Assembly: GCA_029061255.1 (NCBI GenBank)
Contig: JAIDSL010000099.1
Location: forward strand, 18,932 to 82,931
DNA: 64,000 bases
Direction: 5' to 3'
Source of the DNA: Muribaculaceae bacterium
GTDB lineage: Bacteria; Bacteroidota; Bacteroidia; Bacteroidales; Muribaculaceae
Part shown: piece by piece, positions 2,210 through 30,890 of the stretch
Layout: every line of letters starts with the position of its first letter
How positions within the stretch are numbered: position 1 is the first letter of the stretch
Notes under the pieces: generated by a model
The model's input: the letters and a program-made list of their open reading frames with translations, nothing else
Databases searched by the model: none
What the model was told of the DNA's origin: nothing
Position numbers and translations under genes: made by a program

Positions 2210-2217
2210 TAACTTTG
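2210..2217 (+). promoter_or_regulatory. Bacteroidetes-type -7 promoter element TAACTTTG upstream of the cobalamin riboswitch
   Basis: TAACTTTG matches TAnnTTTG; TTG at 2187-2189 at roughly the expected -33 spacing. Confidence 0.6.
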
Positions 2218-2221
2218 CGCC

Positions 2222-2400
2222 ACGTTTTGGTTTGCGGCAACGCGATTAATAGGGAATCCGGTGAGAATCCGGGACAGACCCGCTACTGTAATTCCTACAA
2301 AACTCACCGACATAATGCCACTGTCAGATTGGCTGATGGGAAGGCGTCGGCGAGCAGGATAAGTCAGGAGACCTGCCAAGACAACATAATGTTTTGTAGT
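2222..2400 (+). ncRNA. Cobalamin (B12/AdoCbl) riboswitch
   Basis: GGGAAnnnGGTGnnAAnnCC core (AGGGAATCCGGTGAGAATCCGGGACAGACCCGCTACTGTAA) and B12 box GTCAGGAGACCTGCC at 2363-2377. Confidence 0.95.
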
Positions 2401-2460
2401 TTTCGGGTTATATTACCACAAGACAGCCGTTCGTCATCCCTCACCGGGGTGTAGGAACAT

Positions 2461-2506
2461 GGTTTGCTGTGTAATATGCCTTATTATAAACCCTTGGCAG
2501 CAAACC
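2461..2506 (+). promoter_or_regulatory. Putative expression-platform hairpin just upstream of the TonB receptor start codon
   Basis: Perfect 9-bp inverted repeat GGTTTGCTG (2461-2469) / CAGCAAACC (2498-2506), ending 3 nt before the ATG at 2510. Confidence 0.5.
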
Positions 2507-2509
2507 AAA

Positions 2510-4669
2510 ATGAAGCATCGCTCACTGTCATTTCTACTTTTCTTCAGCTTCCTGCAGATGCAGGGTGCCGATCCTTCGTATATACAAAATACGGACACTG
2601 TCAGTGATTTTCCTGATGATGCCTTTGCTTTGGATGAGGTGAAGGTCTACGGTAAATCGGCTGCCAAGAAACTTGAAGAGGGTGCTTTTGCTGTCAATGC
2701 CGTAGAAATCACCCCTAACGTCAATAGGTCAGTCACCCTCAACGATATCGTGGATCGCACAGCCGGAGTGAAGGTGCGCCGTGAAGGTGGAATGGGATCT
2801 GAATTTGATCTTACGATCAACGGCATGTCAGGCAATTCAATCCGATATTTCATCGACGGTGTTCCATTAGAAACAAAGGGTTCCGGACTTACATTAGACA
2901 ATGTGCCTCTCAACACAGTGGAGCGTGTGGAGTTGTACAAGGGTGTTGTGCCTTCCTATCTCAGTTCGGATGCCTTGGGCGGTGCGGTAAACATAGTCAC
3001 TAAGAAATCACGCCGTAACTTTTTAGACGCATCTTACGGCATAGCCTCTTTCCATACGCATACAGGAGACATAACAGGCCAATACTATATACCGGGTACG
3101 TCAATCGCAGTCAGACCGACATTTAGTATCAACTACTCCAAAAACGACTATATGATGAAGGGAGTGGAAGTATGGAGTGAGGAGGAAGACAAGTTTATAT
3201 TTACTAATAAAAAGAGATTCCACGACGATTATTTTTCTCTTTTCGGCCAGATAGAAGCGGGGGTCAACAATACCCGATGGGCGGATATGTTTTTTATAGG
3301 TGTCTCCTACAATAAGCTTGATAAGGATATCCAGACCGGGGCCATGCAGAACAAGGTGTATGGCGAGGCATCCCGCAATTCTCACTCATTTAATGTATCA
3401 GCGAGATATGCCAAGAACTGGGGGCGTGTATCTACAAGATTGAATATCTCGCATACATGGGATCACAGTGAGACCGTGGACACGGCATTCCGTAAATATT
3501 CATGGGATGGCACATGGATGCCTTCTTCCGGAAACGAACTCAACAACAAGGGAAAGACGATAAGGGTTTACCGACGCCCTCTGACAGTCGTGAATGCCGG
3601 AGTCGATTATAGCATCAACGAGCATCATACACTGGCGTTCAACTACATGCTCAACAGACGAGGTAATGACAGATACGACCGGGCAGACCGATTCTTCGAG
3701 CCTTCAAACGACATTGTCACAAAACATATACTCTCCCTTACATATTCCCAGTCATTTTTCGATCAAAAATGGCAGACATCTTATTTTGTAAAGGATTACA
3801 TAAACGCTCTTTCTATCGGGCAGTCGGATGACTTCACCATTACCGGCTCTGACCAGATAGATAAAAAGAATTCCAAGAGCTACTGGGGAGCAGGAATAGG
3901 GACCCGATATACAATATGGGAACCTCTGGCCGTCAAAGGGTCATATGAACATAGCGTCAGGCTTCCATTGTCTCGGGAACTGCTCGGTAACGGAACAACA
4001 GTCTATGCCAATCTCGCTTTGCATCCCGAGACAAGCAACAACTATAATATCGGAGTATTCGGTAATTGGATTGTAGATGACGACAATCAGGTCAGCTACG
4101 AAGCCAACGGCTTCATCCGCCATGTGCAGAACTACATACGTGCCACTGTCTCTGAGCGGGAGGGAATGATGCAATACATAAACGAACCCGCCATAGACAT
4201 AAAGGGCTTCGATTTTGAGGTGTCATATTGGTGGAGACACCAACTGCAGGTAGCACTTAACGGTAGCTGGAGCGATGCCCGCGACCTCAAGAAGTATAAG
4301 ACCGACGGCAATCCATCGGCTACATACAAGAACCGTGTCCCTAACCGACCCTGGATGTTCGGCAACGTGGATGTGTCATATACTTTTAATTCTCTCATTG
4401 AAAAAGAGGATCGTCTCAGGATTGGAGCTGCTTATCAATATATTCACTGGTATTTCCTCAATTGGGAAGCTTTCGGAGCTGCATCTTCAAAGGCACGTAT
4501 CCCTACGCAGAACATCACGGATATTTCCGTAACCTATTCATGTAAGAAAGACAGATTCAACCTTTCGCTGGAATGCAATAATATCTTCGACAAGCTGGCT
4601 TACGACAACTATATGCTCCAGAAACCGGGACGCAGTTTCGCTGCAAAATTCAGAATATTCATTAACTAA
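2510..4669 (+). CDS. TonB-dependent outer-membrane receptor (corrinoid/metal-tetrapyrrole type, BtuB-like by context)
   Basis: ORF track starts at 2459, but the ATG at 2510 gives signal peptide MKHRSLSFLLFFSFLQMQGA. Plug domain (GMSGNSIRYFIDGVPLE, VERVELYKGVVPSYLSSDALGGAVNIVTK) and C-terminal beta-barrel. Confidence 0.93.
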   Translation: MKHRSLSFLLFFSFLQMQGADPSYIQNTDTVSDFPDDAFALDEVKVYGKSAAKKLEEGAFAVNAVEITPNVNRSVTLNDIVDRTAGVKVRREGGMGSEFDLTINGMSGNSIRYFIDGVPLETKGSGLTLDNVPLNTVERVELYKGVVPSYLSSDALGGAVNIVTKKSRRNFLDASYGIASFHTHTGDITGQYYIPGTSIAVRPTFSINYSKNDYMMKGVEVWSEEEDKFIFTNKKRFHDDYFSLFGQIEAGVNNTRWADMFFIGVSYNKLDKDIQTGAMQNKVYGEASRNSHSFNVSARYAKNWGRVSTRLNISHTWDHSETVDTAFRKYSWDGTWMPSSGNELNNKGKTIRVYRRPLTVVNAGVDYSINEHHTLAFNYMLNRRGNDRYDRADRFFEPSNDIVTKHILSLTYSQSFFDQKWQTSYFVKDYINALSIGQSDDFTITGSDQIDKKNSKSYWGAGIGTRYTIWEPLAVKGSYEHSVRLPLSRELLGNGTTVYANLALHPETSNNYNIGVFGNWIVDDDNQVSYEANGFIRHVQNYIRATVSEREGMMQYINEPAIDIKGFDFEVSYWWRHQLQVALNGSWSDARDLKKYKTDGNPSATYKNRVPNRPWMFGNVDVSYTFNSLIEKEDRLRIGAAYQYIHWYFLNWEAFGAASSKARIPTQNITDISVTYSCKKDRFNLSLECNNIFDKLAYDNYMLQKPGRSFAAKFRIFIN

Positions 4670-4687: not shown

Positions 4688-5959
4688 ATGAAAAAATTTA
4701 AGTTTCTTCTACTTTCTTTCATGGCGCTTTTCATCGCCTTCGGCATGACAAGCTGCTCTAAGGATGATGATCCAAAACAGGAAGATGATCCTACTATCAT
4801 TCAGGATTACCACTTCGACCTTTGGGTAGCCCTCGACCGCCACGGCGGTATGGGCAGGGACGTGCAGACTCTTGTACGCAGCCTTAACTCTCTTGAAGCC
4901 GATCAGCCGGAAATCACCTTTCAAGGCCAGGGCACCGAGGTAAATTCTATCCTTTCTCTCGAGACCATACTGAAAGGTGCATATTATTATCAAGTGCCTG
5001 TGTCAGGCGACCGTTTCGCAAAATATACTATCAAGGACAATCAGATTCAGGTGGTGAAGGAACGTCGCTTCCAGACCAATACCTATTCTACAAGAAAATA
5101 TACACATGCCTGGATCAACGATAATACTCTCGTAATAATGGCGGCAAACGGAGATGCTTCAAAAATAATCTGGACAAAACTGAATGCAGATGATATGACC
5201 ATTATCGATGAGGGTACTCTTGATGTAAAGATGCCGGAGGGTGGTGAACTCTTCACAACTTCAGGTATCCTCACTTATCGTGCATCTGACAATAAACTTT
5301 TCTACTTCTATTATGCAAAAACAGGTAAGGCTTTTGGTGGCAAAAGAGTCACTCCTATGATGACAGCAGTGATCAACCCGGCTAATATGGCAGTGGAGAG
5401 TGACAAACCCTGCTTCCTCGACTGCGAGATGGTGGGGACGGCTTATGGAGAATTGCTTCAGACCACTACTTTCATCGATGGCAACAACAACCTCTATATC
5501 GCCTGTGTTACTGACGATGCCGATGGCAATGAACACAGCCATCTGCTTAAGATCCCTGCCAACTCTACATCTTTTGACCAAAGCTATGACGGCTTTACCG
5601 CTGACGGCAAATTGATTTCTGTCATGTATGTCGGGAATAATAAGGTTGTAGCATATGCAAGAGAGGATAAAATAGGTACGAAGATAGATGATTTCAGTCA
5701 TTATTATACTGTCCTTGACGTGATATCCAAGACAAGCACACCTATTACATTTAATGGACAGCGTCTTGCTTACAGCAGCGGCCGCTTCTCTTCCCGAATG
5801 GCTTATGTCAATCACAAAGCCTATATCGGAGTCGATGCCGAAGGTCAGAAACCTCAGATATACATCTATGATGTGGCTACAGGGCAGACTTCGCTTGGAG
5901 CTACTATGGCATCAGGATATTACTTCGAGCAAATCCGTGTAGTCGAAGACGTGAAATAA
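4688..5959 (+). CDS. DUF4374-like surface/periplasmic lipoprotein
   Basis: Lipoprotein signal MKKFKFLLLSFMALFIAFGMTSCSKDDD; partner gene immediately downstream of the TonB receptor; sequence resembles the DUF4374 family. Confidence 0.75.
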   Translation: MKKFKFLLLSFMALFIAFGMTSCSKDDDPKQEDDPTIIQDYHFDLWVALDRHGGMGRDVQTLVRSLNSLEADQPEITFQGQGTEVNSILSLETILKGAYYYQVPVSGDRFAKYTIKDNQIQVVKERRFQTNTYSTRKYTHAWINDNTLVIMAANGDASKIIWTKLNADDMTIIDEGTLDVKMPEGGELFTTSGILTYRASDNKLFYFYYAKTGKAFGGKRVTPMMTAVINPANMAVESDKPCFLDCEMVGTAYGELLQTTTFIDGNNNLYIACVTDDADGNEHSHLLKIPANSTSFDQSYDGFTADGKLISVMYVGNNKVVAYAREDKIGTKIDDFSHYYTVLDVISKTSTPITFNGQRLAYSSGRFSSRMAYVNHKAYIGVDAEGQKPQIYIYDVATGQTSLGATMASGYYFEQIRVVEDVK

Positions 5960-6073: not shown

Positions 6074-6970
6074 ATGAAAAAACTGATTTTCTTTCTTTCA
6101 ATTATGCTTACGGTCACGGTAAATGCCCAGAACCTGCTGAATTCAGAATCAGGGAAGACTGCAATTCTAATGGTACACTTCGGCACTACCGTCGACGAGA
6201 CCCGTGCTGCGACGATAGATGCTTTGAATGATAAGGTAAAATCGACATTCCCGGGAATAACAGTAGAGGAAGCTTATACTTCAAGGATAATAATAAATCG
6301 TCTTGCCAAGCGTGGAATTCAAAAGAATACTCCAAAGGAAGCTCTCCTTCGGCTTGCTGCAGAGGGATATACAAATGTGATAGTACAGGGCACCAATGTA
6401 ATCGATGGGATAGAAACTGAGGTACTTCGTCAGGAAGCCGCCATGATGTCGCCATTCTTTACAGAAATACGTGTAGGAAGGCCGTTGCTATATTCTATTG
6501 CTGACTGTGAGAAAACAGTGGAGGTGCTGAAGAATCGCTACAGCAATCATGCAGGAAAAGATAAGGCTGTAGTGTTGGTTGGTCATGGCACCTCCACTCC
6601 TGCCACAGCAATCTATTCTCAAATCGATTATATGTTCGGAGCAGCTGATGCCGGCAGTTTCCATGTGGCTACAGTGGAAGGCTATCCAACCTACGAGACC
6701 ACATTAGCCGAACTTAAGAAAGACAGGGTGAAAAAAGTTTGTCTCGTGCCGTTTATGTTCGTAGCAGGTGATCATGCCCGTAATGACATTGATGTAGAAT
6801 GGCGCGAACAGCTCGAGAAGGATGGCTTCCAGGCGGAGGCTGTCATTGAGGGATTAGGTCAGATTCCGGAAATTCAGAATATTTATATCGATCATATCAG
6901 GGAGGCTATGACAGCTCCGGTTATAGATGCCGCCTCTCAAAAAGCCGGTTTTATAAAGGAAAATCTATAA
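6074..6970 (+). CDS. CbiK-type sirohydrochlorin/anaerobic cobaltochelatase homolog with N-terminal signal peptide
   Basis: MKKLIFFLSIMLTVTVNAQ signal peptide followed by CbiK motifs AILMVHFGTTVDETR, AVVLVGHGTSTPATAIYSQIDYMF, CLVPFMFVAGDHARNDI. Confidence 0.9.
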   Translation: MKKLIFFLSIMLTVTVNAQNLLNSESGKTAILMVHFGTTVDETRAATIDALNDKVKSTFPGITVEEAYTSRIIINRLAKRGIQKNTPKEALLRLAAEGYTNVIVQGTNVIDGIETEVLRQEAAMMSPFFTEIRVGRPLLYSIADCEKTVEVLKNRYSNHAGKDKAVVLVGHGTSTPATAIYSQIDYMFGAADAGSFHVATVEGYPTYETTLAELKKDRVKKVCLVPFMFVAGDHARNDIDVEWREQLEKDGFQAEAVIEGLGQIPEIQNIYIDHIREAMTAPVIDAASQKAGFIKENL

Positions 6971-7082: not shown

Positions 7083-10000
7083 ATGTTAAGAGTCGGGAAA
7101 ATCTCTGTTGTAATAGCACTGATAGTATTAGTGGGGGGCTTATGTTGGCTTATATATTCAATATGTTTAAAGCCCACAAGTATTCTTGTAGTCAATCCAT
7201 TGCCTGCACAGGAAGCGGAAATAATACTCAATAACGACAGCCGCAACATAAAGGTAACTTGCGTCAGCATGGAAGAGGCAAAGGATTTCGAGAACTACGA
7301 TGCCGTGCTGATGTATGGACGTGGTCTTTATCTCGACTCTATTCAACTTCGTTCGCTCGACCGTGCCGCCAGCAAGGGCGTACCCGTATTTACAAATACT
7401 CTTCGTAATTTCAGTTTTGTCGTAAACCATAATCTTGATTCCTTACAGACTGAAAAACTTCAGTTTTACTTCTCAAATCCATGCAGAGAGAACTATCGGA
7501 ATATGCTTAGATATGTGAGAAGCATTTCAACTCCGGGTCGTTTCGGAGATAAGGCATTTTCGGACCCGATAGCCATGCCCTCTAACATGTATTACCATCT
7601 TGAAGCGGGAAAATATTTCGATAAAGCAGTTCAGTTAACTGAATATCTCAAGAAAAAAGGACTCTATTCTCCTTCGGGCAAAAACGTTGCGTTTGTATCA
7701 GGAGTTAATTTCCCGGTTGAGAACAACCGTGCCCATATAGATACTCTCGTGACTCGCCTGACTCAAGATGGATATAACGTATATCCACTGACTGCTACCG
7801 GGAAAGCACGCGAAAGGATGATAAAGGATGTCATGCCGCATGCGATAATATATCTTCCTATGGGGCGTCTTGGCAATGACTCGCTTATAAATTGGGCTTA
7901 TGACAACAAGATTCCGCTATTCATGCCATATCCGCTCATTCAGTCAAGGGAGGAGTGGCTTGATGTGAATAATCCGATGGGAGGCGGCACACTCAACGCC
8001 CGCATAGTGGTGCCTGAAATTGATGGGGGAATGACCCCGTTGTGCATTTCCACACAGGATCCATCATCTGAAGGGTATCTGCTTTATAATCCTGACAAGG
8101 AGAGGATGAATGCCTTTATCAGTCAATTTGAGCGATTCATTAACCTTCGTGAGCAATCTAACTCTGAAAAGAAAGTCGCCATCGGCTATTTCAAGTCTCC
8201 CGGGAAGGATGCACTGCTTGCTTCAGGGATGGAAGTCGTACCTTCTCTATATAACTTTCTTAAAAGACTCAAAAAAGAAGGATATAATGTCCAGGGTCTT
8301 CCTGCCTCGCTTGAGCAATTCAGACATCAGATAATGAAGCATGGAAGCGTCATGGGCGACTATGCCCCTGCGGCCCAAGAGAGATTCATGGACGAGGCAG
8401 ACCCATTATGGATAAATAAAAAGGATTATGAAAGATGGGCTAAAGAAATACTGCTGCCTGAAAAATATGCTGAAGTGGAGAAGCGTTACGGAAAAGCTCC
8501 GGGTTCACTTCTTGCAAGAGGCGACAGCATAGCCGTGGCAGCTTTAAGATATGGCAATGTACTGTTGTTTCCGCAACCGCGTCCCGCTTTGGGAAACGAT
8601 GACTTCAAGCTTGTGCATGGAGTTGATGTAGCGCCTCCGCATAGCTATCTTGCTCCATATCTTTATATGCAAAAAGAGTTTGACGCTGATGCCCTGATAC
8701 ATTTCGGAACACACGGAAACCTTGAATTTACTCCGGGCAAGAATGCAGGACTTTCCCAAGCTGACTGGGCGGAAGTACTTGTTGGCAACCGTCCGCATTT
8801 CTACTTTTATACTACAGGAAATGTAGGAGAGGCGATAATTGCCAAGCGCCGAAGCCACGCGGTGATAGTGACACACCTTACTCCTCCATACGTTGAAAGC
8901 GGACTGCGCCAGAAATATAATGCTCTGATAGAAAATATTCATGCCGCTATTGCGGATCCCTCTCGTAACACCGGTGCCCTGAAGCGTCAGGTCATAGATC
9001 TTGGTTTTCATCGGGATCTTGAGCTTGATTCGACTTTGTCGGGCACATATACCGTAGAGGAACTGAAGAAAATCGATTCCTTTGTCGAGGAACTTGCAAA
9101 TGAGAAGATAACAGGAGCCTATTATGTGATGGGTGAGCCTTATTCCTCCAAAGACATGACCACAAGTGTTCTTGCCATAACAGCGGATGAACTTGCCTAC
9201 AGTCGTGCAAGAAAAGATTACGAAAAGGGGAAGATATCAAAAGAATCCCTTCAGGATTTCACTTTTATTTCCCATCGCTATCTCCCTGATGCGAAGCGGT
9301 ATTTATCCGGTATACTTGAAGGAAGCAAATCAGCGGCATATGATGATGGAGAGAAGGCATTGGAAGTATGTCGGTTGCTTAAGGCTTCTGCAGGAGCTGA
9401 GATAGATGCTATGGTAAGTGCCCTAAACGGAATTCCTGTGCGTCCTGCTCCCGGCGGAGACCCGGTCTTGAATCCGAATGTGCTTCCGATGGGCAGGAAT
9501 ATGTATAGTATCAATGCCGAGGCAACTCCCGGACCCCAGGCTTGGGAAAAGGGGGTGGCTCTTGCCGAGCAGACCTTGTCTGACTATCTGAAAAAGTATG
9601 GCGAGTATCCGAAGAAGGTAAGCTATACATTCTGGGCAGGGGAGTTCATATCATCACAGGGAGCCACTGTAGCGCAGGCATTACGTATGCTCGGAGTCGA
9701 ACCTATTCGCGACGAACAGGGACGTGTCATGGATTTAAGGCTTATTCCATCCGAGGAACTCGGCAGACCGAGAATCAACATTATGGTACAGGTTTCGGGC
9801 CAGTTGCGTGATATTGCCTCTTCGCGTCTCAAGATGATTACCGATGCAGTTAAGCTTGCGTCGGATGCTAAAGAGGATGTATATCCCAATTATGTTGCTG
9901 ACGGCTCAATTAAGCAGGAAAAGGCATTGATGGATAAGGGAGAATCGCCTAAACGAGCCCGTGAGCTGTCGAATATGCGTGTTTTCGGTCCTGTCAATTC

Positions 10001-10973
10001 CGGATATAGCACGGGTATGCTTCGCTACACGGAAAATTCAGGAGAATGGGACGACAGAAGCGAACTTGCCGACGGATACCTCAACAATATGTGTGCAATG
10101 TATGGCGATGATGAAAATTGGGGTGTGATCAACAGAAACGCCCTGGAATCGGGAATATCCGGTACTGATATAATCGTGCAGCCGCGTCAAAGCAATACAT
10201 GGGGGCCAATATCTCTCGACCATGTGTATGAGTTTACGGGAGCTTTGTCGCTTGCCGCCAAAAGCATCAGCGGCAAGACGCCGGATGCCGTCATGGCAGA
10301 CTACCGCAATTCATACATTCCCCGACTGCAAGATACAAAGGAGGCAATAGCGGTTGAGACGAGAGCCACTATTCTTAATCCGGATTTCATAAAGGAGAGA
10401 ATGAAGGGTGATGCCACTACTGCACAAATGTTCGGAGAGATATTCAGGAATATATTCGGTTGGAGCGCTACACGTCCGGAGGCTTTGAACGACAAGATAT
10501 ATGACGATCTTTACGATGTCTACGTAGAGGATATCCATGGCCTTGGAGTCAAGGATTATTTTGAGAGAGTCAATCCCGCCGCACTTCAGGAGATGACTGC
10601 CACTATGATGGAAAGTGCAAGAAAAGGTTTCTGGAATCCTACAGAAAAGCAATTGAGCGCAATAGCCGGCCTTCATGCTGATGTGACTGGGGAACATGGA
10701 GCCCCATGCACAGAATTTTTATGCGGAAATCATAAGCTTCAGGAGTACATTTCGTCAAGACTGGACAGGAAGAATGCTGAAAAATACCAAAAGGAGATAG
10801 CAGCAGCGCTTGCAGAAACTTCGGGTTCGAAGCGGCTTAAGGCTGAATCAAAGGGATTTCTGTCTGATAAGGTCGATGAGTCGACAGCCGATTATATAGC
10901 AGCCGTTATTGTAGGGGCATTGCTGATAATCGTGGTTTTGGCAATAACGATAAGGAGAAAGGAGCGGAAATGA
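7083..10973 (+). CDS. HmuS/CobN-type (magnesium/cobalt chelatase large-subunit family) protein, membrane-anchored at both ends
   Basis: 1296 aa; CobN-family motif ALIHFGTHGNLEFTPGKNAGLSQADW; N-terminal TM (VIALIVLVGGLCWLIYSICL) and C-terminal TM (YIAAVIVGALLIIVVLAITIRRKERK). Confidence 0.9.
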   Translation: MLRVGKISVVIALIVLVGGLCWLIYSICLKPTSILVVNPLPAQEAEIILNNDSRNIKVTCVSMEEAKDFENYDAVLMYGRGLYLDSIQLRSLDRAASKGVPVFTNTLRNFSFVVNHNLDSLQTEKLQFYFSNPCRENYRNMLRYVRSISTPGRFGDKAFSDPIAMPSNMYYHLEAGKYFDKAVQLTEYLKKKGLYSPSGKNVAFVSGVNFPVENNRAHIDTLVTRLTQDGYNVYPLTATGKARERMIKDVMPHAIIYLPMGRLGNDSLINWAYDNKIPLFMPYPLIQSREEWLDVNNPMGGGTLNARIVVPEIDGGMTPLCISTQDPSSEGYLLYNPDKERMNAFISQFERFINLREQSNSEKKVAIGYFKSPGKDALLASGMEVVPSLYNFLKRLKKEGYNVQGLPASLEQFRHQIMKHGSVMGDYAPAAQERFMDEADPLWINKKDYERWAKEILLPEKYAEVEKRYGKAPGSLLARGDSIAVAALRYGNVLLFPQPRPALGNDDFKLVHGVDVAPPHSYLAPYLYMQKEFDADALIHFGTHGNLEFTPGKNAGLSQADWAEVLVGNRPHFYFYTTGNVGEAIIAKRRSHAVIVTHLTPPYVESGLRQKYNALIENIHAAIADPSRNTGALKRQVIDLGFHRDLELDSTLSGTYTVEELKKIDSFVEELANEKITGAYYVMGEPYSSKDMTTSVLAITADELAYSRARKDYEKGKISKESLQDFTFISHRYLPDAKRYLSGILEGSKSAAYDDGEKALEVCRLLKASAGAEIDAMVSALNGIPVRPAPGGDPVLNPNVLPMGRNMYSINAEATPGPQAWEKGVALAEQTLSDYLKKYGEYPKKVSYTFWAGEFISSQGATVAQALRMLGVEPIRDEQGRVMDLRLIPSEELGRPRINIMVQVSGQLRDIASSRLKMITDAVKLASDAKEDVYPNYVADGSIKQEKALMDKGESPKRARELSNMRVFGPVNSGYSTGMLRYTENSGEWDDRSELADGYLNNMCAMYGDDENWGVINRNALESGISGTDIIVQPRQSNTWGPISLDHVYEFTGALSLAAKSISGKTPDAVMADYRNSYIPRLQDTKEAIAVETRATILNPDFIKERMKGDATTAQMFGEIFRNIFGWSATRPEALNDKIYDDLYDVYVEDIHGLGVKDYFERVNPAALQEMTATMMESARKGFWNPTEKQLSAIAGLHADVTGEHGAPCTEFLCGNHKLQEYISSRLDRKNAEKYQKEIAAALAETSGSKRLKAESKGFLSDKVDESTADYIAAVIVGALLIIVVLAITIRRKERK

Positions 10974-11470
10974 GCTTAGTTCAGTTGATTTTCTTTATAG
11001 CGATAGCATTCGCGGCGATAGTGAGGGTATCAATCCTTTCACAGAAGGCTGGGATTATGATTGTGGTATGTTGGGGAATTTTAGCCGTGTTTCTGACCTT
11101 CTATATGAGTGGCTTGACTCCGGACGAAATCGCCGGACTGCTATACGCAAGGACTCTTGTGGTGTGTGAATTTGTAGAATTGCTGGTGTTTGTAGCAATG
11201 GTATTCTCTTCCGGCTCAGTCGGTAGGATAATCGGTTATTATCCAGGTATAATGATATTGGCTCCGATCGCCTTATTGTCATCGGTTGCTTCGCGATCCT
11301 TTCCCGGTCTTGATTTCACGATTCCGGCTTTGCTTGCCGGGATATCGGTATGTGTCGTTTCCGCGTCTCTCGTATTCCTATGCCGTTGTCTAAGGCTTGG
11401 GAAAGATAGTCTTTATAAGGTCTCTTTAATCGGGATCTTGATATGTATAATTTATTATGGATTATCATGA
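10970..11470 (+). CDS. Small multi-pass membrane protein (HmuT-like by position)
   Basis: Hydrophobic 166-aa ORF overlapping the CobN-type stop by ATGA and followed by an ExbB-like gene. Confidence 0.7.
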   Translation: MSLVQLIFFIAIAFAAIVRVSILSQKAGIMIVVCWGILAVFLTFYMSGLTPDEIAGLLYARTLVVCEFVELLVFVAMVFSSGSVGRIIGYYPGIMILAPIALLSSVASRSFPGLDFTIPALLAGISVCVVSASLVFLCRCLRLGKDSLYKVSLIGILICIIYYGLS

Positions 11471-12057
11471 AAATAATATCCGAAATACTATTTACAATTT
11501 CTAACGGACTTATGATTCCGGTAGTCCTGTTACTTCTCTATCTATTGGGAAGAGGGTTATGGATTCTTGCAGGGCTATATAGAACTGTCTGCCTTCACAG
11601 ACGTATGTCTACGGCTCTTAATGAGATAGTCAGGGACTATTCTTATGATCAGCTTCAATCCACTCTTTCCGGTCTGGAAGTCACGAAAGACAGCGTGGTT
11701 AATGAATATTTGACAAGAATTATTGATCATAGTGAAGATCCCGCATATTGCAATCATGTACTGGCGAATTTTCAGGTAGAAGTGCAGAAAATACTTGCAA
11801 AATATAGGATGCTCATAAAGTTCGGACCTATGCTTGGTCTGATGGGAACACTTATTCCTATGGGTCCCGCGCTTGTAGGACTTGCTGTCGGAGACATCTC
11901 CTCTATGGCATACAATATGCAAGTGGCGTTTGCCACAACAGTGATCGGGATGCTTGTTGCCGGCATAGGACTATGTGCATTGCAGCTCAACCAAAGATAT
12001 TATGCCGTATATCTGAACGATCTGGAGTTCATTATCGCTAAAATTGCAACAGAATGA
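11467..12057 (+). CDS. MotA/TolQ/ExbB-family proton channel protein (HmuU-like)
   Basis: ATG at 11467 overlaps the previous stop; ExbB/TolQ motif FGPMLGLMGTLIPMGPALVGLAVGDISSMAYNMQVAFATTVIGMLVAGIG. Confidence 0.9.
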   Translation: MKIISEILFTISNGLMIPVVLLLLYLLGRGLWILAGLYRTVCLHRRMSTALNEIVRDYSYDQLQSTLSGLEVTKDSVVNEYLTRIIDHSEDPAYCNHVLANFQVEVQKILAKYRMLIKFGPMLGLMGTLIPMGPALVGLAVGDISSMAYNMQVAFATTVIGMLVAGIGLCALQLNQRYYAVYLNDLEFIIAKIATE

Positions 12058-12383
12058 AAGAGAATCCTATTCTTCGCAATGACGAAGAAGACAATCCGAT
12101 GGGCATGCTGACAAATCTATTTGATGTCGCGATGGTATTTGCTGTCGCCCTGATGGTGGCATTAGTGAGCCACTTCAGCATGAACGAGATTTTCTCGAAG
12201 GAGGATTTCACTATCGTAAAAAATCCCGGTGCCGATAATATGGAAATAATCACTAAGGAGGGTGACGAGATAAAGAAATACACTCCGACCGACGATGAGT
12301 CATCTTCTTCCGGATCCAAGGGAAGGAAAGTAGGGACGGCGTATCAACTTGAGAATGGAGAAATAATATACATACCTGAATAA
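12054..12383 (+). CDS. DUF2149 family protein (HmuV-like; ExbD-like single-TM partner)
   Basis: NPMGMLTNLFDVAMVFAVALMVALV followed by an acidic soluble tail; ATGA overlap with the ExbB-like gene. Confidence 0.85.
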   Translation: MKENPILRNDEEDNPMGMLTNLFDVAMVFAVALMVALVSHFSMNEIFSKEDFTIVKNPGADNMEIITKEGDEIKKYTPTDDESSSSGSKGRKVGTAYQLENGEIIYIPE

Positions 12384-12395
12384 ATCAAATCAACT

Positions 12396-13541
12396 ATGCG
12401 AAAACTTAGATATTTACCGCTACTGACAGCTATTGCGCTCATGTTTTCCTGTGGGGGGCATCGGAATCAATCGGATGCGAATGGAAAATCAAATACAGAT
12501 GTAGATTCAGCTTCTATGATAGCAGCTCGATATGCCAAAGGCTTTAATGTGAGCTATAGGGATGATATTACACTTCTTGACATAAATGACCCTGAGAATA
12601 AGGAGGCGGAGCAGTTTCATTTTGCTCTTGTAGACAAGGAGTATAATGGAGAGATACCTGATGGTTATACACGCCTCAATATCCCGATAGAAACCGCTAT
12701 CTGTATGACCTCGCTACAGCTTTCCAATTTCCTGAAGCTTGGCATTCCGGAAAAGGTGGTTGGAATCACGAGCACCCGCCATCTGCACAACGAAAAGATG
12801 AACCAACAGCTGAAGGATGGCAAAACCCATAAGATCGGGATAGAGGGAAATTTCGACAATGAGGTGATAATGGCCATAAATCCGGATGTGATTTTCATCT
12901 CGCCCTTCAAGCGTGGCGGCTACGATGCCATCCGTAATGTAGACATACCGATGATCCCTCATCTCGGGTATAAGGAGTTGACTCCGTTGGGGCAGGCAGA
13001 GTGGATAAAGGTGATCGGTCTTCTGACCGGTAATGCCTCGCTTGCAAATTCCACCTTCGAGGGTATAGAAAGCAGATATAACGGACTTAAGTCTAAGGTA
13101 GATACTGTGAAGAACCGTCCTACAGTGTTCAGCGGAGAGATGCGCGGAGGAAACTGGTATGCAGTAGGTGGTAAGAGTTTTCTCGCCCAGCTCTTCAGGG
13201 ATGCCGGTGGCGACTACTTCCTTAAAGACAACACTGAGTCAGGAGGAGTGACCCTTGACTATGAGACTGTCTATACCAATGCCGCGCATGCTGACTACTG
13301 GCGAATCGTCAATAGTTTTGACGGCGATTATAGCTATAATGTCCTAAAGGAGCAGGATAATAGATACACTGATTTTGATGCTTGGAAAAATCACGGTGTC
13401 ATATATTGCAATATGAAGGAAGTTCCTTTTTACGAGAGTATGCCGGTGGAGCCGGAGATAGTATTAGCTGATTTTATCCACGTATTCCATCCGGAAGTGC
13501 TGCCGGACCATAAACCTGAATATTACCATATTTTGAAATGA
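12396..13541 (+). CDS. btuF: ABC transporter substrate-binding lipoprotein (BtuF-like)
   Basis: Lipobox MRKLRYLPLLTAIALMFSCGG; periplasmic-binding fold sequence (GIPEKVVGITSTRHLHNE, NPDVIFISPFKRGG). Confidence 0.85.
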   Translation: MRKLRYLPLLTAIALMFSCGGHRNQSDANGKSNTDVDSASMIAARYAKGFNVSYRDDITLLDINDPENKEAEQFHFALVDKEYNGEIPDGYTRLNIPIETAICMTSLQLSNFLKLGIPEKVVGITSTRHLHNEKMNQQLKDGKTHKIGIEGNFDNEVIMAINPDVIFISPFKRGGYDAIRNVDIPMIPHLGYKELTPLGQAEWIKVIGLLTGNASLANSTFEGIESRYNGLKSKVDTVKNRPTVFSGEMRGGNWYAVGGKSFLAQLFRDAGGDYFLKDNTESGGVTLDYETVYTNAAHADYWRIVNSFDGDYSYNVLKEQDNRYTDFDAWKNHGVIYCNMKEVPFYESMPVEPEIVLADFIHVFHPEVLPDHKPEYYHILK

Positions 13542-14572
13542 GCAGAAGCAGTACGGTTATCCTTATGGGATTGTTGGGAATCTCGATTGCAGGATTCTTT
13601 ATATTGAATCTCCTGTTAGGTTCGGTCCACATCCCTGTCGATGATATCATAGGAATCCTCTTGGGTAGAGACGATGGAAATATGATATGGCGTAACATCA
13701 TACTTAAGTCACGGTTGCCCCAGTCACTGACAGCCATGATGGCGGGAGCAGGACTGGCAGTAAGCGGACTGCTTATGCAGACCGTTTTCCGCAATCCCCT
13801 TGCCGGCCCTTCGGTACTCGGCATCAGTTCCGGGGCGAGTCTTGGCGTGGCTTGTGTGGTCCTGCTGTCGGGTAGCATTGGTGGAGTGGCCCTGAGTAAG
13901 CTTGGGGTGATCGGAGAGGTTACCATCACACTGTCAGCGATTGTCGGGTCCTTGCTTATCATGGCTCTTATAGCATTCGTGGCACAGAAAGTGAGAGGCA
14001 ACGTAACTCTCCTCATAATGGGAGTAATGATAGGCTATATCGCCAACGCCATCATCGGAGTGCTCAAATTTTTCAGCGCGGAGGAGGACATCAGGGCATA
14101 CGTGATATGGGGACTGGGAAGTTTTTCAAGGGTTTCCGGAGGTCAGACTTCGGTATTCATAATATTGATGCTCCTCCTTCTGCCTGTTTCCTTTTTCCTG
14201 ATAAAGACCCTCAATCTTCTTCTTTTAGGAGACTCGTACGCCAAAAACTTAGGATTGAATATCAAGAGGGCGCGACTTTGGGTGATTGGATGTTCAGGAG
14301 TGCTTGTCGCTGTCGTGACGGCTTATTGCGGTCCTGTTGTCTTTCTCGGGCTTGCGGTTCCACATATATGCCGGGGTCTCTTTCATACATCCAATCATGC
14401 GGTGATACTTCCGGCTTCGTTGCTTGGTGGCGCGTCATTGGCGTTGCTTTGTAACCTCATAGCGAGGATGCCAGGTTTCGAGGGTGCTCTTCCGGTCAAC
14501 TCCGTCACGGCGCTTGTAGGCGCTCCTGTGGTGATGTGGGTATTGTTCAATAAGCGTAAAAACGATGTGTGA
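13538..14572 (+). CDS. btuC: FecCD/BtuC-type ABC permease
   Basis: LPQSLTAMMAGAGLAVSGLLMQTVFRNPLAGPSVLGISSGASLG; GPVVFLGLAVPHICR. Confidence 0.93.
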   Translation: MSRSSTVILMGLLGISIAGFFILNLLLGSVHIPVDDIIGILLGRDDGNMIWRNIILKSRLPQSLTAMMAGAGLAVSGLLMQTVFRNPLAGPSVLGISSGASLGVACVVLLSGSIGGVALSKLGVIGEVTITLSAIVGSLLIMALIAFVAQKVRGNVTLLIMGVMIGYIANAIIGVLKFFSAEEDIRAYVIWGLGSFSRVSGGQTSVFIILMLLLLPVSFFLIKTLNLLLLGDSYAKNLGLNIKRARLWVIGCSGVLVAVVTAYCGPVVFLGLAVPHICRGLFHTSNHAVILPASLLGGASLALLCNLIARMPGFEGALPVNSVTALVGAPVVMWVLFNKRKNDV

Positions 14573-15366
14573 TGAAAAGGGATGAAACAATAAAGGTAAT
14601 GGGTTTGGATACCGGTTATCTTGACAGGAAGCATACGACTGTCATCACACGAGATATAAATGCCTCGTTGTTTTCAGGGGAACTTACATGCCTGTTGGGT
14701 CCGAACGGTGCAGGAAAGTCGACACTGCTTAAGACTTTGACAGCGTTTCTCCCACCTCTGAAAGGAGATATACTGATCGAAGACAGACCTCTGGATTCCT
14801 ATTCAGAATCAGACTTGGCCAAGGTAATCGGCGTGGTACTTACCGAACGCCTTAACATCAACAATATGTCGGTCGATGAACTTGTAGGTATGGGGCGTAG
14901 TCCGTATACCGGTTTCTGGGGACATATGTCGGATTATGACAGGAAAGTTGTAGCTGAATCAATCTCTTTAGTGGGAATTGATGGACTTCGCAGCCGTATG
15001 GTGCAGACCCTTAGCGACGGCGAGCGTCAGAAAGTGATGATTGCCAAAGCCCTTGCACAGGAGACTCCTGTGATCTTTCTTGATGAGCCTACGGCATTTC
15101 TCGATTATCCGAGTAAGGTTGAGATAATGCTGTTGCTCCAGAAATTGTCACGTGAAAAGAACAAGACGGTTTTCTTGTCAACGCATGACCTTGAACTTGC
15201 GCTTCAAATCGCAGACAAGGTATGGCTTCTTGACAAGCCTCATGGAGTGACTGTCGGTACGCCCGAGGAACTGGCGCTTAATGGAGCCATCAGCACGTAT
15301 TTCCAGCGGGAAGGGTTGGCTTTCGATATAGAAAACAGACTTTTCAAAATCTTAGGATTAAAGTAG
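14569..15366 (+). CDS. btuD: FecE/BtuD-type ABC ATPase
   Basis: Walker A LGPNGAGKSTLLK, signature LSDGERQKVMIAKALAQ, Walker B VIFLDEP. Confidence 0.94.
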   Translation: MMKRDETIKVMGLDTGYLDRKHTTVITRDINASLFSGELTCLLGPNGAGKSTLLKTLTAFLPPLKGDILIEDRPLDSYSESDLAKVIGVVLTERLNINNMSVDELVGMGRSPYTGFWGHMSDYDRKVVAESISLVGIDGLRSRMVQTLSDGERQKVMIAKALAQETPVIFLDEPTAFLDYPSKVEIMLLLQKLSREKNKTVFLSTHDLELALQIADKVWLLDKPHGVTVGTPEELALNGAISTYFQREGLAFDIENRLFKILGLK

Positions 15367-15373
15367 ACATATT

Positions 15374-16777
15374 ATGAAAACGAAAATCACCGTAATCGGC
15401 ATAGGTCCCGGCAATATCGGGGATATGACTTCCAATGCTATAGAAGCTCTTCGGAAGGCTGATATTGTTGTCGGTTACAAATACTATATCCCTTTCATAT
15501 CTCCGCTTCTCCGTGAAGATGCGGTAGTCATTCAAAATGGGATGAAGCAGGAGCAAAAGCGTATTGAAAAGGCTTTTGAAATAGCTGAAACCGGCAAGGA
15601 TGTGGCGGTAATAAGTTCCGGGGATGCAGGTATATACGGTATGGCTCCTCTCGTCTATGAGATGCTTAGGGAGCGAGGTTCTGACATAGAGGTGGAGGTG
15701 ATACCCGGAATAAGTGCATTCCAAAAGGCTGCATCATTGCTCGGTGCTCCGGTCGGACATGACTTCTGTGTCATATCGCTCAGTGATCTCCTGACTCCAT
15801 GGGCAGTTATAGAGAAGCGCATAAAGGGGGCAGCTGAGGCAGATTTCGTGACCGCAGTCTATAATCCCAAGAGTCACGGAAGATATTGGGAATTGTATCG
15901 TTTGAAAGAACTGTTTCTTGAGCACAGAGATTCTGCCACTCCGGTAGGATATGTGCGTCAGGCAGGAAGAGATGGGCAGAAAGTCACAGTGACTACATTA
16001 GGGTCATTTGATCCGGAAGAGGTGGATATGTTTACGGTCGTCATCATAGGAAATTCACAGACTTATCGATTTGATGGCCATATGGTGACACCCAGAGGGT
16101 ATTATGGATCAGAAACGCAGGAAAATGCAGGGGTAGGACAATCAATAATGATCGAGAGTTTCCAGACAATTGAGCGGGAGCTGACAGATCCGGATATCCC
16201 GCTTGGCAGGAAATGGCCTCTTTTGCATGCCATCCATACCACTGCCGACTTCGATATGGAGAATATCGTGAAAGTCGATGAGGGAGCCATAGAAGAGATT
16301 TACAATGCCTTGTCGTCTGGAAGCGTACGAACCATAATCACGGATGTGACTATGGCAGCCTCCGGGATAAGGAAAGGGGCGCTGGAACGTCTTGGCATCT
16401 CGGTGAAATGCTATCTTTCCGATCCGAGGAGCATTGAACTTGCCAAAAAGTCGAATATCACGAGGACACAGGCTGGAATACGTATGGCTGTTTCTGACCA
16501 TCCGGATGCCCTTTACGTATTCGGTAATGCTCCTACGGCTCTTATGGAACTTTGCACTCTGATTCAAGCCGGGAAGGCAAGACCGTGCGGGATCATTGCG
16601 GCTCCCGTCGGTTTCGTGCATGTATGCGAGAGCAAGCATATGGTGAAGCCTTTCAAAGATATTCCTAAAATAATAGTCGAGGGGCGGAAAGGTGGAAGTA
16701 ACCTCGCTGCAACCCTTGTCAATTCCATACTCTGCTGGCCCGATGCGGAGCAGTTAAGACCCGGAAGAGATGTCTGA
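15374..16777 (+). CDS. Fused CobJ/CbiH (precorrin-3B C17-methyltransferase) - CobH/CbiC (precorrin-8X methylmutase)
   Basis: N-terminal SAM corrin methyltransferase (GIGPGNIGDMTSNAIEAL, AVISSGDAGIYGMAPLVYEM). C-terminal CbiC (VRTIITDVTMAASGI, IIAAPVGFVHVCESKH, VEGRKGGSNLAATLVNSIL). Confidence 0.93.
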   Translation: MKTKITVIGIGPGNIGDMTSNAIEALRKADIVVGYKYYIPFISPLLREDAVVIQNGMKQEQKRIEKAFEIAETGKDVAVISSGDAGIYGMAPLVYEMLRERGSDIEVEVIPGISAFQKAASLLGAPVGHDFCVISLSDLLTPWAVIEKRIKGAAEADFVTAVYNPKSHGRYWELYRLKELFLEHRDSATPVGYVRQAGRDGQKVTVTTLGSFDPEEVDMFTVVIIGNSQTYRFDGHMVTPRGYYGSETQENAGVGQSIMIESFQTIERELTDPDIPLGRKWPLLHAIHTTADFDMENIVKVDEGAIEEIYNALSSGSVRTIITDVTMAASGIRKGALERLGISVKCYLSDPRSIELAKKSNITRTQAGIRMAVSDHPDALYVFGNAPTALMELCTLIQAGKARPCGIIAAPVGFVHVCESKHMVKPFKDIPKIIVEGRKGGSNLAATLVNSILCWPDAEQLRPGRDV

Positions 16778-17957
16778 GAAGCAGTTTATTGTTATCGGAC
16801 TGTCCGATAGCCGCAGTCAGTGGTTTACTCCTGAAGTAAGGGAATTAATAGCTTCCGGTCATGTCTTTTCCGGAGGCAGACGACATCATGAGATCGTGAA
16901 AGATCTTTTGCCGGAGGGTTGTGTGTGGATTGACATTGTAGTTCCTTTGGAAAAGGTGTGGGTAGAATATTCTCATTACAGCAAGATTGTGGTATTTGCC
17001 TCAGGAGATCCATTGTTTTATGGCTTTGCCGCCACTTTGAGTCGTGAGTTTCCTGATTGCCGTATGAAAGTATATCCGGCATTCAATTCCCTTCAGATGC
17101 TGGCTCACCGTATGCTTGTTCCGTATGCAGATATGGTGAATATCTCGGTGACGGGTAGACCATGGAAAGGACTTGATTCGGCAGTCATCAGGCAGTGCCC
17201 CCTTATAGGCGTATTGACCGACCACAAAAAGGGACCTGCGGAAATAGCCGGCAGATTGCTTGAATATGGATATGACAATTATATGATGACGGTTGGAGAA
17301 AATCTTGGTAATGAGAGCGAAGAGCTTGTCAGGTCTTTTTCGCTTGAAGAAGCCTACGGCAAAACATTTTCACATCCAAACTGCGTGATCCTTACCAAGA
17401 AATATTCCCGAAAGAGATATTTCGGCATTCCCGAGTCTGAATTTTATCATCTCGAGGGTAGAAGGAATATGATCACCAAGATGCCGATCCGATTGCTGAC
17501 ACTCTCAATGCTTGACCTTTATGAGAGACATACCCTTTGGGATATCGGTTTCTGCACAGGCTCCGTTTCGATAGAGGCCAAACTTCAGTTTCCTTCACTT
17601 GAGGTGGTGGCGTTTGAACGTCGGGAAGAATCACGGGAACTTCTGGTTAAGAATTGCCGTAAATTTGGAGCACCCGGGATAACAGGAGTGATCGGAGACT
17701 TTATGAACTGTGATATCAGTCGCTATCCTTCTCCGGATGCTGTGTTCATAGGTGGACATGGCGGACGACTTGAGGAAATGGTCTGTAGGATATATAAGGT
17801 TTTAAACAAAGGGGGAGTTCTTGTCTTTAATTCTGTCAGCGCGGAAAGTTGCCATGTATTCCGCAATGCAGTTGAAGCCTGTGGCGGAGTCATCGAAGCT
17901 GAACACATACTGATTTTAGATGATCATAACCCGATAACAATACTTAAAGCAAAATGA
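16770..17957 (+). CDS. cobL: CobL / CbiE-CbiT fusion (precorrin-6B C5,15-methyltransferase, decarboxylating)
   Basis: CbiE N-terminus (VVFASGDPLFYGFAATL) and CbiT C-terminus (LWDIGFCTGSVSIEAKL, DAVFIGGHGGRLEEM). Confidence 0.93.
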   Translation: MSEKQFIVIGLSDSRSQWFTPEVRELIASGHVFSGGRRHHEIVKDLLPEGCVWIDIVVPLEKVWVEYSHYSKIVVFASGDPLFYGFAATLSREFPDCRMKVYPAFNSLQMLAHRMLVPYADMVNISVTGRPWKGLDSAVIRQCPLIGVLTDHKKGPAEIAGRLLEYGYDNYMMTVGENLGNESEELVRSFSLEEAYGKTFSHPNCVILTKKYSRKRYFGIPESEFYHLEGRRNMITKMPIRLLTLSMLDLYERHTLWDIGFCTGSVSIEAKLQFPSLEVVAFERREESRELLVKNCRKFGAPGITGVIGDFMNCDISRYPSPDAVFIGGHGGRLEEMVCRIYKVLNKGGVLVFNSVSAESCHVFRNAVEACGGVIEAEHILILDDHNPITILKAK

Positions 17958-19723
17958 AATACATAGTATATATAAACGATGCCGGACTTAAGTTAGGAGA
18001 AATAATACTGAAAGAAAGGCCCGATTACGTACTTATTGACCAAAGAGCGTTCTCTTCAGCTGATTACCATGCAATAGAGGCAATCATCTTTATAGGAGCT
18101 TTAGGAATATGCGTACGTATGATAGCCCCAATGGTAAATGACAAGTACACTGATCCGGCTGTAATTTGTGTGGATAGTATAGGGCACAATGCTATATCTG
18201 TTCTTTCCGGCCACGTCGGTGGTGCCAACCGCTTGTGTGAGGAGGTAGCTCACATCATAGGAGCGAGACCTGTGATTACTACTCAGAGTGACAATACCGG
18301 CGTGTGGAAACTTGACATTTTGGGAAAGTGTATGGGCTGGGCTTCCGATGCATCGCGGACAGAAATGAATCAAGCAATTGCTGCGCTTGTCAATGGTAAG
18401 CCGGTAGGTTTGCTACTCGATATCCGCGACAAAGGAACTGATTATCTGGAGTCTACTCTTCCTCCCAATGTTTCTGTGGTCACAGATCGAACAGATGTGG
18501 CGCAATATCAACTGATCATTGCTGTGACCCCATATGTATATAATTTTGATGTCCTAACTCTCTACTATCGTCCGTTGGTGTTGAATCTTGGCATTGGTTG
18601 CCGGCGCGATTGCAATCCTGACGGAGTTGCAGAGTATATTGGAAAGACTTTGGTTGAGAATGGTATCAGTCCTAAGGCAATAAAGTCGGTTTCCACAATA
18701 GATTTGAAGAAAGATGAGCCTCTCCTTGCTGAGCTTTCAAAGTGGCAAAACATTCATTTGTGTAGCATATATACACCCGATCAACTTGCAGGTATCGTTG
18801 TGCCAAATCCTTCGGAGAAGGTGATGGAAGTGACAGGCGTTCCTGGGGTTGCGGAAAGCTGTGCCATAAAATCGGCTGATTATGGAAAAATTATTTTTGA
18901 GAAGCATAAGGGGAAGGTTTCTGAAGACTCAGATTTCACATTTGCCGTAGCTCTTGATAAAGGAGCCTTGCGTGGAGGTCATATTGAGATCGTCGGGGCC
19001 GGTCCGGGCGATCCTGAACTCGTATCGGTAAGGGGAAAGCGTTTCCTTGAGCAAGCCGACCTTATCTTGTATGCCGGAAGTCTTGTTCCTATAGAATTGA
19101 CTTATTATGCCAAGCCGGGTTGCGTGGTGAGAAGTTCTGCCTCAATGAATCTTGAAGAGCAGTTTACTTTGATGAAGGAGTTTTATGATAGAGACAGACT
19201 CGTGGTTCGTCTTCATACAGGCGACCCTTGCATATATGGTGCGATTCAAGAACAGATGGCTTACTTCGACCGATATGGCATGAACTACCATATCACACCC
19301 GGCATTTCATCATTCCAGGCAGCGGCAGCCGCTTTGAAATCTCAGTTTACTATTCCTGAGAAAGTGCAGACCATTATTCTTACACGTGGAGAGGGGCGCA
19401 CTCCGATGCCGGAAAAAGAGCAACTTCACAAACTTGCCGCTTCGCAGAGCACCATGTGCATTTATCTCAGCGCTGGAATCGTAGATGATGTGCAGAGGGA
19501 GCTTTTGATGGCATATCCCCCGGAGACTCCTGTAGCTGCTTGCTACAAGCTGACTTGGAAAGAAGAGAAAATCTATCGTGGTCAGCTTAAGGATTTGGCA
19601 AAGATAGTTCATGATAATAAGCTCACATTGACTACTCTTCTTGTGGTGGGTGAGGCCATAGACAATCGTGAAGGACTGTCACGCCTTTATAATGACAGTT
19701 TCAAGCATCTTTTCAGGAAATGA
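17954..19723 (+). CDS. Fused CbiG (cobalt-precorrin-5A hydrolase) - CobM/CbiF (C11-methyltransferase)
   Basis: CbiG region (AIIFIGALGICVRMIAPMVNDKYTDPAV, SVLSGHVGGANRL). CobM region (GAGPGDPELVSVRGKRFLEQADLILYAGSLVP, VVRLHTGDPCIYGAIQEQ). Confidence 0.93.
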   Translation: MKYIVYINDAGLKLGEIILKERPDYVLIDQRAFSSADYHAIEAIIFIGALGICVRMIAPMVNDKYTDPAVICVDSIGHNAISVLSGHVGGANRLCEEVAHIIGARPVITTQSDNTGVWKLDILGKCMGWASDASRTEMNQAIAALVNGKPVGLLLDIRDKGTDYLESTLPPNVSVVTDRTDVAQYQLIIAVTPYVYNFDVLTLYYRPLVLNLGIGCRRDCNPDGVAEYIGKTLVENGISPKAIKSVSTIDLKKDEPLLAELSKWQNIHLCSIYTPDQLAGIVVPNPSEKVMEVTGVPGVAESCAIKSADYGKIIFEKHKGKVSEDSDFTFAVALDKGALRGGHIEIVGAGPGDPELVSVRGKRFLEQADLILYAGSLVPIELTYYAKPGCVVRSSASMNLEEQFTLMKEFYDRDRLVVRLHTGDPCIYGAIQEQMAYFDRYGMNYHITPGISSFQAAAAALKSQFTIPEKVQTIILTRGEGRTPMPEKEQLHKLAASQSTMCIYLSAGIVDDVQRELLMAYPPETPVAACYKLTWKEEKIYRGQLKDLAKIVHDNKLTLTTLLVVGEAIDNREGLSRLYNDSFKHLFRK

Positions 19724-29063: not shown

Positions 29064-29069
29064 GATTGC

Positions 29070-30649: not shown

Positions 30650-30684
30650 AACTAATTATTTTGTTCCAGAAATAATCTCGTCAT

Positions 30685-30890
30685 ATGTTGTATCAGGCAG
30701 GTTTCCTGACTTATCCCGGTTGTTTGTGCCTTCCCAATCTAAAAGACCAGTGGCAAGTTGCAAGAACGACTGCTCTAAAATGCTTAAATCATGCATTTTA
30801 AAAGCGGGATTTACAGTAGCTGGTACTGTTCCGGCATCACACCGGATTCCCTCTCATCGACTTGAAAAGCCGATTCACCTGATTACACTG
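30685..30890 (-). ncRNA. Second cobalamin riboswitch, upstream of the PepSY-cobUTSC operon
   Basis: Reverse-complement B12 box GTCAGGAAACCTGCC (30696-30710) and core with AATCCGGTGTGATGCCGGAACAGTACCAGCTACTGTAAATCCCGC. Confidence 0.93.

Follow-up and report, generated by a model that had tools for sequence, protein, structure and literature searches.

The question raised by this locus is where, and on which ring, a cobaltochelatase would act if it carries a secretion signal. The window, i.e. the whole stretch of 64,000 nucleotides that was analysed, comes from a Muribaculaceae genome. A first-pass annotation had noticed in it a CbiK homologue with a signal peptide, and had remarked that a cytosolic chelatase is required for corrin synthesis. 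We confirm the observation. The interpretation is supported in part, and we shift it from the lack of a cytosolic enzyme towards salvage outside the cytoplasm. In our reading, to which we give a probability of roughly 0.5 with the full mechanism included, the window CbiK is a periplasmic sirohydrochlorin-type cobaltochelatase that belongs to a B12-regulated tetrapyrrole-salvage operon. The features of the locus are as follows.

2211 to 2394, forward strand: cobalamin riboswitch 5' of the operon (RF00174, 114.8 bits, E=4.8e-28)
2459 to 4669, forward strand: TonB-dependent outer-membrane receptor (PF00593, E=2e-21; PF07715, E=2e-13), the true start of which is probably an internal Met
4688 to 5959, forward strand: surface-type lipoprotein, predicted XusB/BtuG-type beta-propeller (lipobox leader, AlphaFold2 model, Foldseek)
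6074 to 6970, forward strand: CbiK class II chelatase with a predicted signal peptide (sequence, Pfam, PDB matches, leader rule, alignment of relatives)
7083 to 10973, forward strand: membrane-anchored CobN-like BtuS (PF02514, E=1e-274; closest solved relative HmuS, 9d26)
10970 to 11470, forward strand: HmuT-like small membrane protein (named from position and hydrophobicity only; no family match)
11443 to 12057, forward strand: HmuU-like MotA/TolQ/ExbB protein (PF01618, E=1e-9)
12054 to 12383, forward strand: HmuV-like DUF2149 protein (PF09919, E=3e-32)
12396 to 13541, forward strand: periplasmic binding lipoprotein of a BtuF-like importer (PF01497, E=3e-18)
13538 to 14572, forward strand: FecCD/BtuC-type permease (PF01032, E=2e-73; best NCBIfam match BtuC, under its cut-off)
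14569 to 15366, forward strand: ABC transporter ATPase (Walker A GPNGAGKST in the sequence)
15374 to 16777, forward strand: CbiH-CbiC fusion (PF00590 and PF02570)
16770 to 21516, forward strand: CbiET, CbiG-CbiF fusion and CbiJ-CbiD fusion (PF00590, PF11760/PF01890, PF02571, PF01888)
21507 to 26784, forward strand: CbiA, adenosyltransferase, CbiP, CobD-type aminotransferase and CbiB
26738 to 30649, reverse strand: CobC-, CobS-, CobT- and CobU-like genes, so named from reading the translations and not by HMM, and a PepSY_TM protein (E=3e-56)
30679 to 30897, reverse strand: second cobalamin riboswitch, 5' of the PepSY-cobUTSC group (RF00174, 81.6 bits, E=1.5e-18)

The chelatase ORF has an ATG start and encodes 298 amino acids with no internal stop. 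Its frame is open for a further 42 nt in the 5' direction without any earlier start codon, and near relatives share the start position. A spurious start codon was ruled out, as an earlier start is absent and the leader is lineage-wide. The Pfam CbiK profile (PF06180) matches residues 30-279 with E=1.1e-76 and 258 bits (cut-off 26.2), and the match spans profile positions 2-261 of 262, i.e. the whole domain. The NCBIfam model SiroCoChCbiK gives 198 bits where its equivalog cut-off is 400, so the protein is a member of the family and not a certified equivalog. In the PDB the best match is CbiKP of D. vulgaris (2xvx, E=2e-43), and Salmonella CbiK (1qgo/2xwp, E=8e-39) and FetB (9b86, E=1e-31) are matched as well. 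His171 and His234 align with the catalytic His145 and His207 of Salmonella CbiK, and Glu114 aligns with the glutamate of its GDE. Both histidines are kept in 91/91 main-family CbiK ORFs and the glutamate in 90/91. The intact CbiK domain with histidine motifs that had been described is thus present, with a full-length profile match and both catalytic residues aligned. Judged by its sequence, the ORF is a real and intact CbiK-family class II chelatase.

The leader, MKKLIFFLSIMLTVTVNAQ, starts with a basic n-region, followed by a hydrophobic core and the cleavage motif VNA|Q. The signal-peptide-like part covers approximately the first 18 residues, and the leader ends in VNAQ with no lipobox Cys. 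Leaders were scored with a crude rule (charge, hydrophobicity, cleavage motif), not with SignalP. The rule is satisfied by 92 of 95 Bacteroidota CbiK ORFs and by both window lipoproteins, and the three ORFs it rejects still show a hydrophobic leader. None of the 14 cytosolic control genes passes; the membrane proteins CobN/BtuS and FecCD do, however, so a leader and a membrane anchor are not told apart by the rule. The median identity of CbiK to its relatives is 18% at residues 1-26 versus 55% at 28-280, which means that the leader is conserved in character and not in sequence. The 80 closest relatives found in a search of the genome collection all lie in Bacteroidota loci, and every main-family CbiK among them has a hydrophobic leader if its N-terminus is present. 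The same is true of those second CbiK copies and CbiK-like lipoproteins that were readable. A scan of viral contigs found no CbiK relatives. The leader features and the crude rule agree with the signal peptide noticed at first, and the relatives are alike in this respect. Predicted export is a lineage trait of Bacteroidota rather than an oddity of one genome, given the leaders of the Bacteroidota relatives and the precedents of IhtB/FetB and B. fragilis, and the protein would be expected to be actually secreted.

The family has further members in these genomes. Lipoproteins of the CbiK family, about 370-450 aa long and with acidic linkers, are found near the main CbiK in nine loci (L102, L104, L105, L110, L128, L134, L144, L145 and L158); the one at L102:3574-4734 matches PF06180 with E=8e-47 and retains the catalytic His. 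The second CbiK copies of two Prevotella loci (L124:5520-6425 and L132:2-994) are divergent, the first catalytic His being aligned with Arg or Asp, and are perhaps binding proteins instead of enzymes.

The source assembly (3.66 Mb) is 86.6% complete, and for this reason the absences reported here rest on relatives as well. A search of the assembly for a second CbiK found none, so that ORF 6074-6970 is the sole CbiK, and no cytosolic CbiX was found, the sole CbiX match being the same ORF. In 30 other CbiK genomes a separate CbiX gave only weak matches (E 1e-9 to 5e-4), which were the CbiK ORF itself where coordinates were compared and had CbiK-like frame lengths in the rest. The impression that no cytosolic chelatase is visible, originally gained from the cluster, thus holds for class II chelatases across the assembly.

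The front end of the pathway was searched in the same way. HemC was found neither in the source genome nor in any genome of the genus, nor in any of the 30 other CbiK genomes examined. SUMT was not found in the genus, in which the TP_methylases are CbiH, CbiE, CbiF and RsmI only; the additional TP_methylase of Bacteroides- and Dysgonomonas-type genomes is CbiL and not SUMT. The search of the genus for Met8/SirC gave nothing clear, only weak Rossmann-type matches. As HemC and SUMT are missing, internally made sirohydrochlorin is not expected in these CbiK genomes. To demand a cytosolic chelatase for corrin synthesis is to presume that the ring is made inside the cell, and with HemC, SUMT, Met8/SirC and CbiL not detected this presumption falls away. 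Without an internal substrate for a cytosolic chelatase the initial puzzle is removed, and the origin of the ring becomes the question. The genome has the profile of a salvager, i.e. Cbi genes are present and the route to precorrin-2 is gone (HemC and SUMT searched). Among 101 relatives, nine have both CbiK and CbiD, one has CbiK alone and four have CbiD alone (Fisher p=3e-9, phylogeny ignored).

CbiL was not found in the source genus, and a small number of Prevotellaceae and Coprobacter genomes lack it too. In the window it is absent while the later corrin-ring genes are all present (15374-26784), and the same gap is seen in G000, G012, G022, G023, G033, G034, G037 and G045, and also in G101, G119, G120, G122, G124, G127 and G129. 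True CbiL is present in Bacteroides, Dysgonomonas, G075 and G088. Where CbiL is missing, C20 would be methylated by an unrelated enzyme, or the ring would carry this methyl group before its import. G075, an order-level relative, offers a natural control for salvage: it has HemC, SUMT and CbiL, a leaderless CbiX at its cbi cluster, and no CbiK. The CbiX of this genome (L202, L203, L028) is a two-domain protein with a His-rich tail. G088 has HemC, SUMT and Met8, yet its CbiK, in a locus with a cobalamin riboswitch, is predicted to be exported. Export thus does not depend on losing the front end, and the correlation is not strict.

The importer and cbi genes lie downstream of CbiK in the same direction, and the gene order around CbiK is largely kept in related loci across genera. 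A cobalamin riboswitch is found in the CbiK locus of 13/14 sampled relatives and in 3/5 further CbiK loci, and in none of five HmuS-type loci of relatives. To judge from its riboswitch, the CbiK operon belongs to the B12 regulon, a point that the first-pass annotation did not mention. Pairwise dN/dS is 0.01-0.2 for the receptor, the lipoprotein, CbiK, BtuS, the importer and the Cbi proteins, i.e. the gene set is under purifying selection and in use. The PepSY_TM protein (29582-30649, reverse strand) heads the second riboswitch operon together with nucleotide-loop genes, and is possibly a membrane reductase for the system. Two congeners without BtuS also have a PepSY_TM protein within the CbiK operon (L211:14223-15719, reverse strand; L212:11815-13263, forward strand), as in Xus siderophore operons.

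The lipoprotein at 4688-5959 has no sequence match in Pfam, NCBIfam or the PDB. An alignment-based AlphaFold2 model is a beta-propeller (pLDDT 87), for which Foldseek returns XusB (9hqe, E=1e-13) as the best match and a BtuG-type protein (8bmz) with E=2e-8. XusB proteins bind siderophores, and BtuG-type proteins bind cobalamin. The predicted fold fits surface capture of a metal chelate or a tetrapyrrole and does not fix the ligand.

The neighbour at 7083-10973 is CobN/HmuS-like and has hydrophobic segments at both termini, and its description as a membrane-anchored CobN-type protein stands. It does not reach the CobN equivalog cut-offs, and the terminal segments argue against a soluble cytosolic CobN subunit. 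The locus holds two chelatase families in tandem, both with export features, consistent with the periplasmic metal-tetrapyrrole system that had been suggested. The label HmuS-like is apt in so far as HmuS is the nearest relative; the protein is not a canonical HmuS, since it has other residues in place of the heme ligands and no Met-rich insertion. The heme-contacting Met79 and His254 of HmuS correspond to Arg80 and Met260, and the cleft residues His538 and His1209 to His544 and His1047, the last of which was assigned by gapless offset and the motif LDHVYE. The region of the Met-rich insertion (domain IV) has 28 residues and no Met, versus 159-167 residues with 14-18 Met in the HmuS copies of the same genus. 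CbiK-linked BtuS copies have Arg at the position of Met79 and Met at that of His254 and lack the insertion; the exception is L157, which has Pro and Met at these positions and retains the insertion. HmuS-type copies of relatives retain the Met and the His, and those of the same genus also the long Met-rich insertion. A true HmuS at 7083-10973 was ruled out by the replaced ligands and the missing insertion, and by these residues the neighbour is of the riboswitch-linked BtuS type. Its arginine would go well with a polycarboxylated ring, for example sirohydrochlorin. Three congeners (G022, G033 and G037) have CbiK and the importer and no BtuS, so BtuS is accessory to the CbiK core.

The mechanism that we propose takes from the sequences the predicted leader, the catalytic residues, the operon order, the riboswitch, the loss of the precorrin-2 route and the purifying selection; from these we infer the substrate, the direction of metal transfer and the route of transport. 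The TonB receptor and the propeller lipoprotein would bring an exogenous ring into the periplasm; the likeliest candidates are siroheme, sirohydrochlorin or something closely derived from them, with other gut microbes as the source. BtuS, where present, would remove an unwanted metal such as iron, with siroheme as the source, and CbiK would insert cobalt into the scavenged ring in the periplasm. The BtuCDF-like importer, the HmuTUV-like complex or both would carry the cobalt ring to the cytoplasm, where CbiH-C, CbiET, CbiG-F, CbiJ-D, CbiA, CbiP and CbiB would finish the corrinoid. We extend this only tentatively to Bacteroidota without a precorrin-2 route in general, i.e. to periplasmic metal exchange (removal by BtuS, cobalt insertion by CbiK), dedicated B12-regulated import and then the corrin pathway. 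The missing CbiL of the genus speaks against the model, since the step from Co-sirohydrochlorin to CbiH has no known enzyme, or else the ring is pre-methylated.

An unlikely alternative, though the best of those considered, is an IhtB/FetB-like heme or iron system, in which the exported CbiK and BtuS would bind heme or iron porphyrin and strip the iron, the link to B12 being incidental. The fold of the window lipoprotein, resembling siderophore-binding XusB, points this way, and so does G030, which has the set without CbiD. Moreover, the homologue FetB/IhtB is annotated as heme-binding (PMC10913741), HmuS, to which BtuS is closest among solved structures, is a heme de-chelatase (PMC12583661), and PMC6460266 reports poor growth on heme iron for a B. 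fragilis btuS1 btuS2 double mutant. The same paper gives no significant defect on heme iron for the btuS1 single mutant, and cites unpublished data that disruption of B. fragilis cbiK leaves heme-iron use unaffected, in keeping with a function outside iron supply. Control by a cobalamin riboswitch and continuity with the cbi genes also disagree with an iron function, as do the separate, riboswitch-less HmuS-type loci of relatives, which keep the heme ligands that BtuS lacks. In G030 the CbiK (L215:8571-12916) is divergent (41% identical) and accompanied by a lipoprotein and a receptor only; no riboswitch was found at this set and no CbiD in the genome, and here an iron role is the better fit.

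Uptake of finished or partial corrinoids is a distinctly improbable reading. The receptor, lipoprotein and importer would then take up cobamides or cobinamide, and periplasmic CbiK and BtuS would exchange or recover cobalt or chaperone cobalt or the ligand. The cobalamin riboswitch, the BtuG-like fold and the BtuC-like permease suit such a role, as do module-bearing genomes seemingly without cbi genes. These include nine loci of rumen Prevotellaceae (L112, L116, L117, L119, L120, L129, L133, L138 and L121) with the module receptor-lipoprotein-CbiK-BtuS-ExbB-DUF2149 and no cbi gene within 10 kb. One of them, L121 of the Prevotella MAG G126, has the full module in a genome where CbiH/E/F are absent altogether. 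All these loci speak against the salvage model, and MAG gaps may explain part of them. However, we know of no class II chelatase that acts on corrins, and the module is frequently linked to the complete early corrin pathway, which would be superfluous for cobamide salvage.

Two other readings are very improbable. In one, the leader is non-functional and CbiK makes Co-sirohydrochlorin in the cytosol with a precursor that is imported or made internally in some unknown way. The fold and active site, those of cytosolic CbiK, could be cited in its favour; against it, a basic start, a hydrophobic core and a small-residue cleavage motif persist in nearly all relatives despite sequence turnover, and IhtB is exported with a predicted signal peptide (PMC10913741). 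In the other, the missing HemC, SUMT and CbiL mark a remnant whose remaining pathway is on its way out, but the frames are intact, the order is kept across genera, and a relic pathway is ruled out by the dN/dS of 0.01-0.2.

The periplasmic salvage reading bears on an old problem. Many Bacteroidota have most of the corrin-ring genes and no means of making the first ring, and Roper et al. reportedly named, in 2000, an enigma of cobalamin biosynthesis in P. gingivalis. Most Bacteroidota are B12-dependent (PMC6461909), and later work that defined tetrapyrrole-precursor salvagers gave no mechanism by which such rings could be taken up. On our reading, an exported cobaltochelatase comes with a receptor, an importer and a riboswitch of its own, so that the P. 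gingivalis B12 enigma becomes open to test in terms of particular genes and substrates. If the salvage model is true, siroheme-type rings are cross-fed between gut microbes. CbiK in Bacteroidota should be taken with caution as proof of de novo B12 synthesis. We found no paper in the open-licence literature that proposes periplasmic cobaltation for B12 salvage in Bacteroidota.

Several known systems resemble the window in part. D. vulgaris CbiKP (2xvx), the best PDB match, is an exported CbiK, as predicted for the window protein. Its His96, which bridges heme in the tetramer, aligns with Glu116, so that the heme-bridging residue is absent; the position is Glu in 55/91 relatives and His in 1/91. 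D. vulgaris has a cytosolic CbiK besides CbiKP, whereas none was found in the window genome. The BtuS and HmuTUV-like genes follow the order of hmuYRSTUV and share the cleft histidines; in contrast, a XusB/BtuG-like lipoprotein replaces HmuY, a cobalamin riboswitch is present, and the HmuS ligands and Met-rich insertion are not kept. Hmu-like operons with cobalamin riboswitches were noted earlier (PMC10100974). The pairing of a TonB receptor with a beta-propeller surface lipoprotein is that of XusABC and BtuBG of Bacteroides (PMC13142918), but the window lipoprotein is only 9-14% identical to its XusB/BtuG fold matches, and the window operon includes chelatases.

The tetrapyrrole-precursor salvagers of Shelton et al. 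(PMC6461909) have, like the window genome, a corrin pathway without the first-ring route. In the accessible part of that paper they are defined by missing genes, P. gingivalis is named as an earlier case, the experimentally shown precursor salvagers require 5-aminolevulinic acid, and neither an exported chelatase nor a dedicated importer is proposed. The ihtABCDE locus of P. gingivalis combines an exported CbiK homologue with a TonB receptor and a binding protein-permease-ATPase importer, as the window does (PMC10913741; 9b86), and G033 and G022 show the CbiK-importer order of ihtABCDE as a subset. IhtB, however, is a lipoprotein, discussed as a heme-iron protein (PMC10913741), whereas the window CbiK leader is of the non-lipoprotein kind. 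FetB is a weaker match to the window CbiK than CbiKP and Salmonella CbiK are, and the window operon differs from that of IhtB/FetB by the riboswitch, BtuS and the cbi genes. In B. fragilis (BF638R_2501-2512) cbiK (BF638R_2502) lies near the membrane-anchored periplasmic CobN-like BtuS1, much as in the window; this work, in its accessible part, concerns heme iron and draws no link to missing precorrin-2 synthesis or exported cobaltation (PMC6460266). With IhtB/FetB and BF638R_2502 as precedents, exported CbiK is already known.
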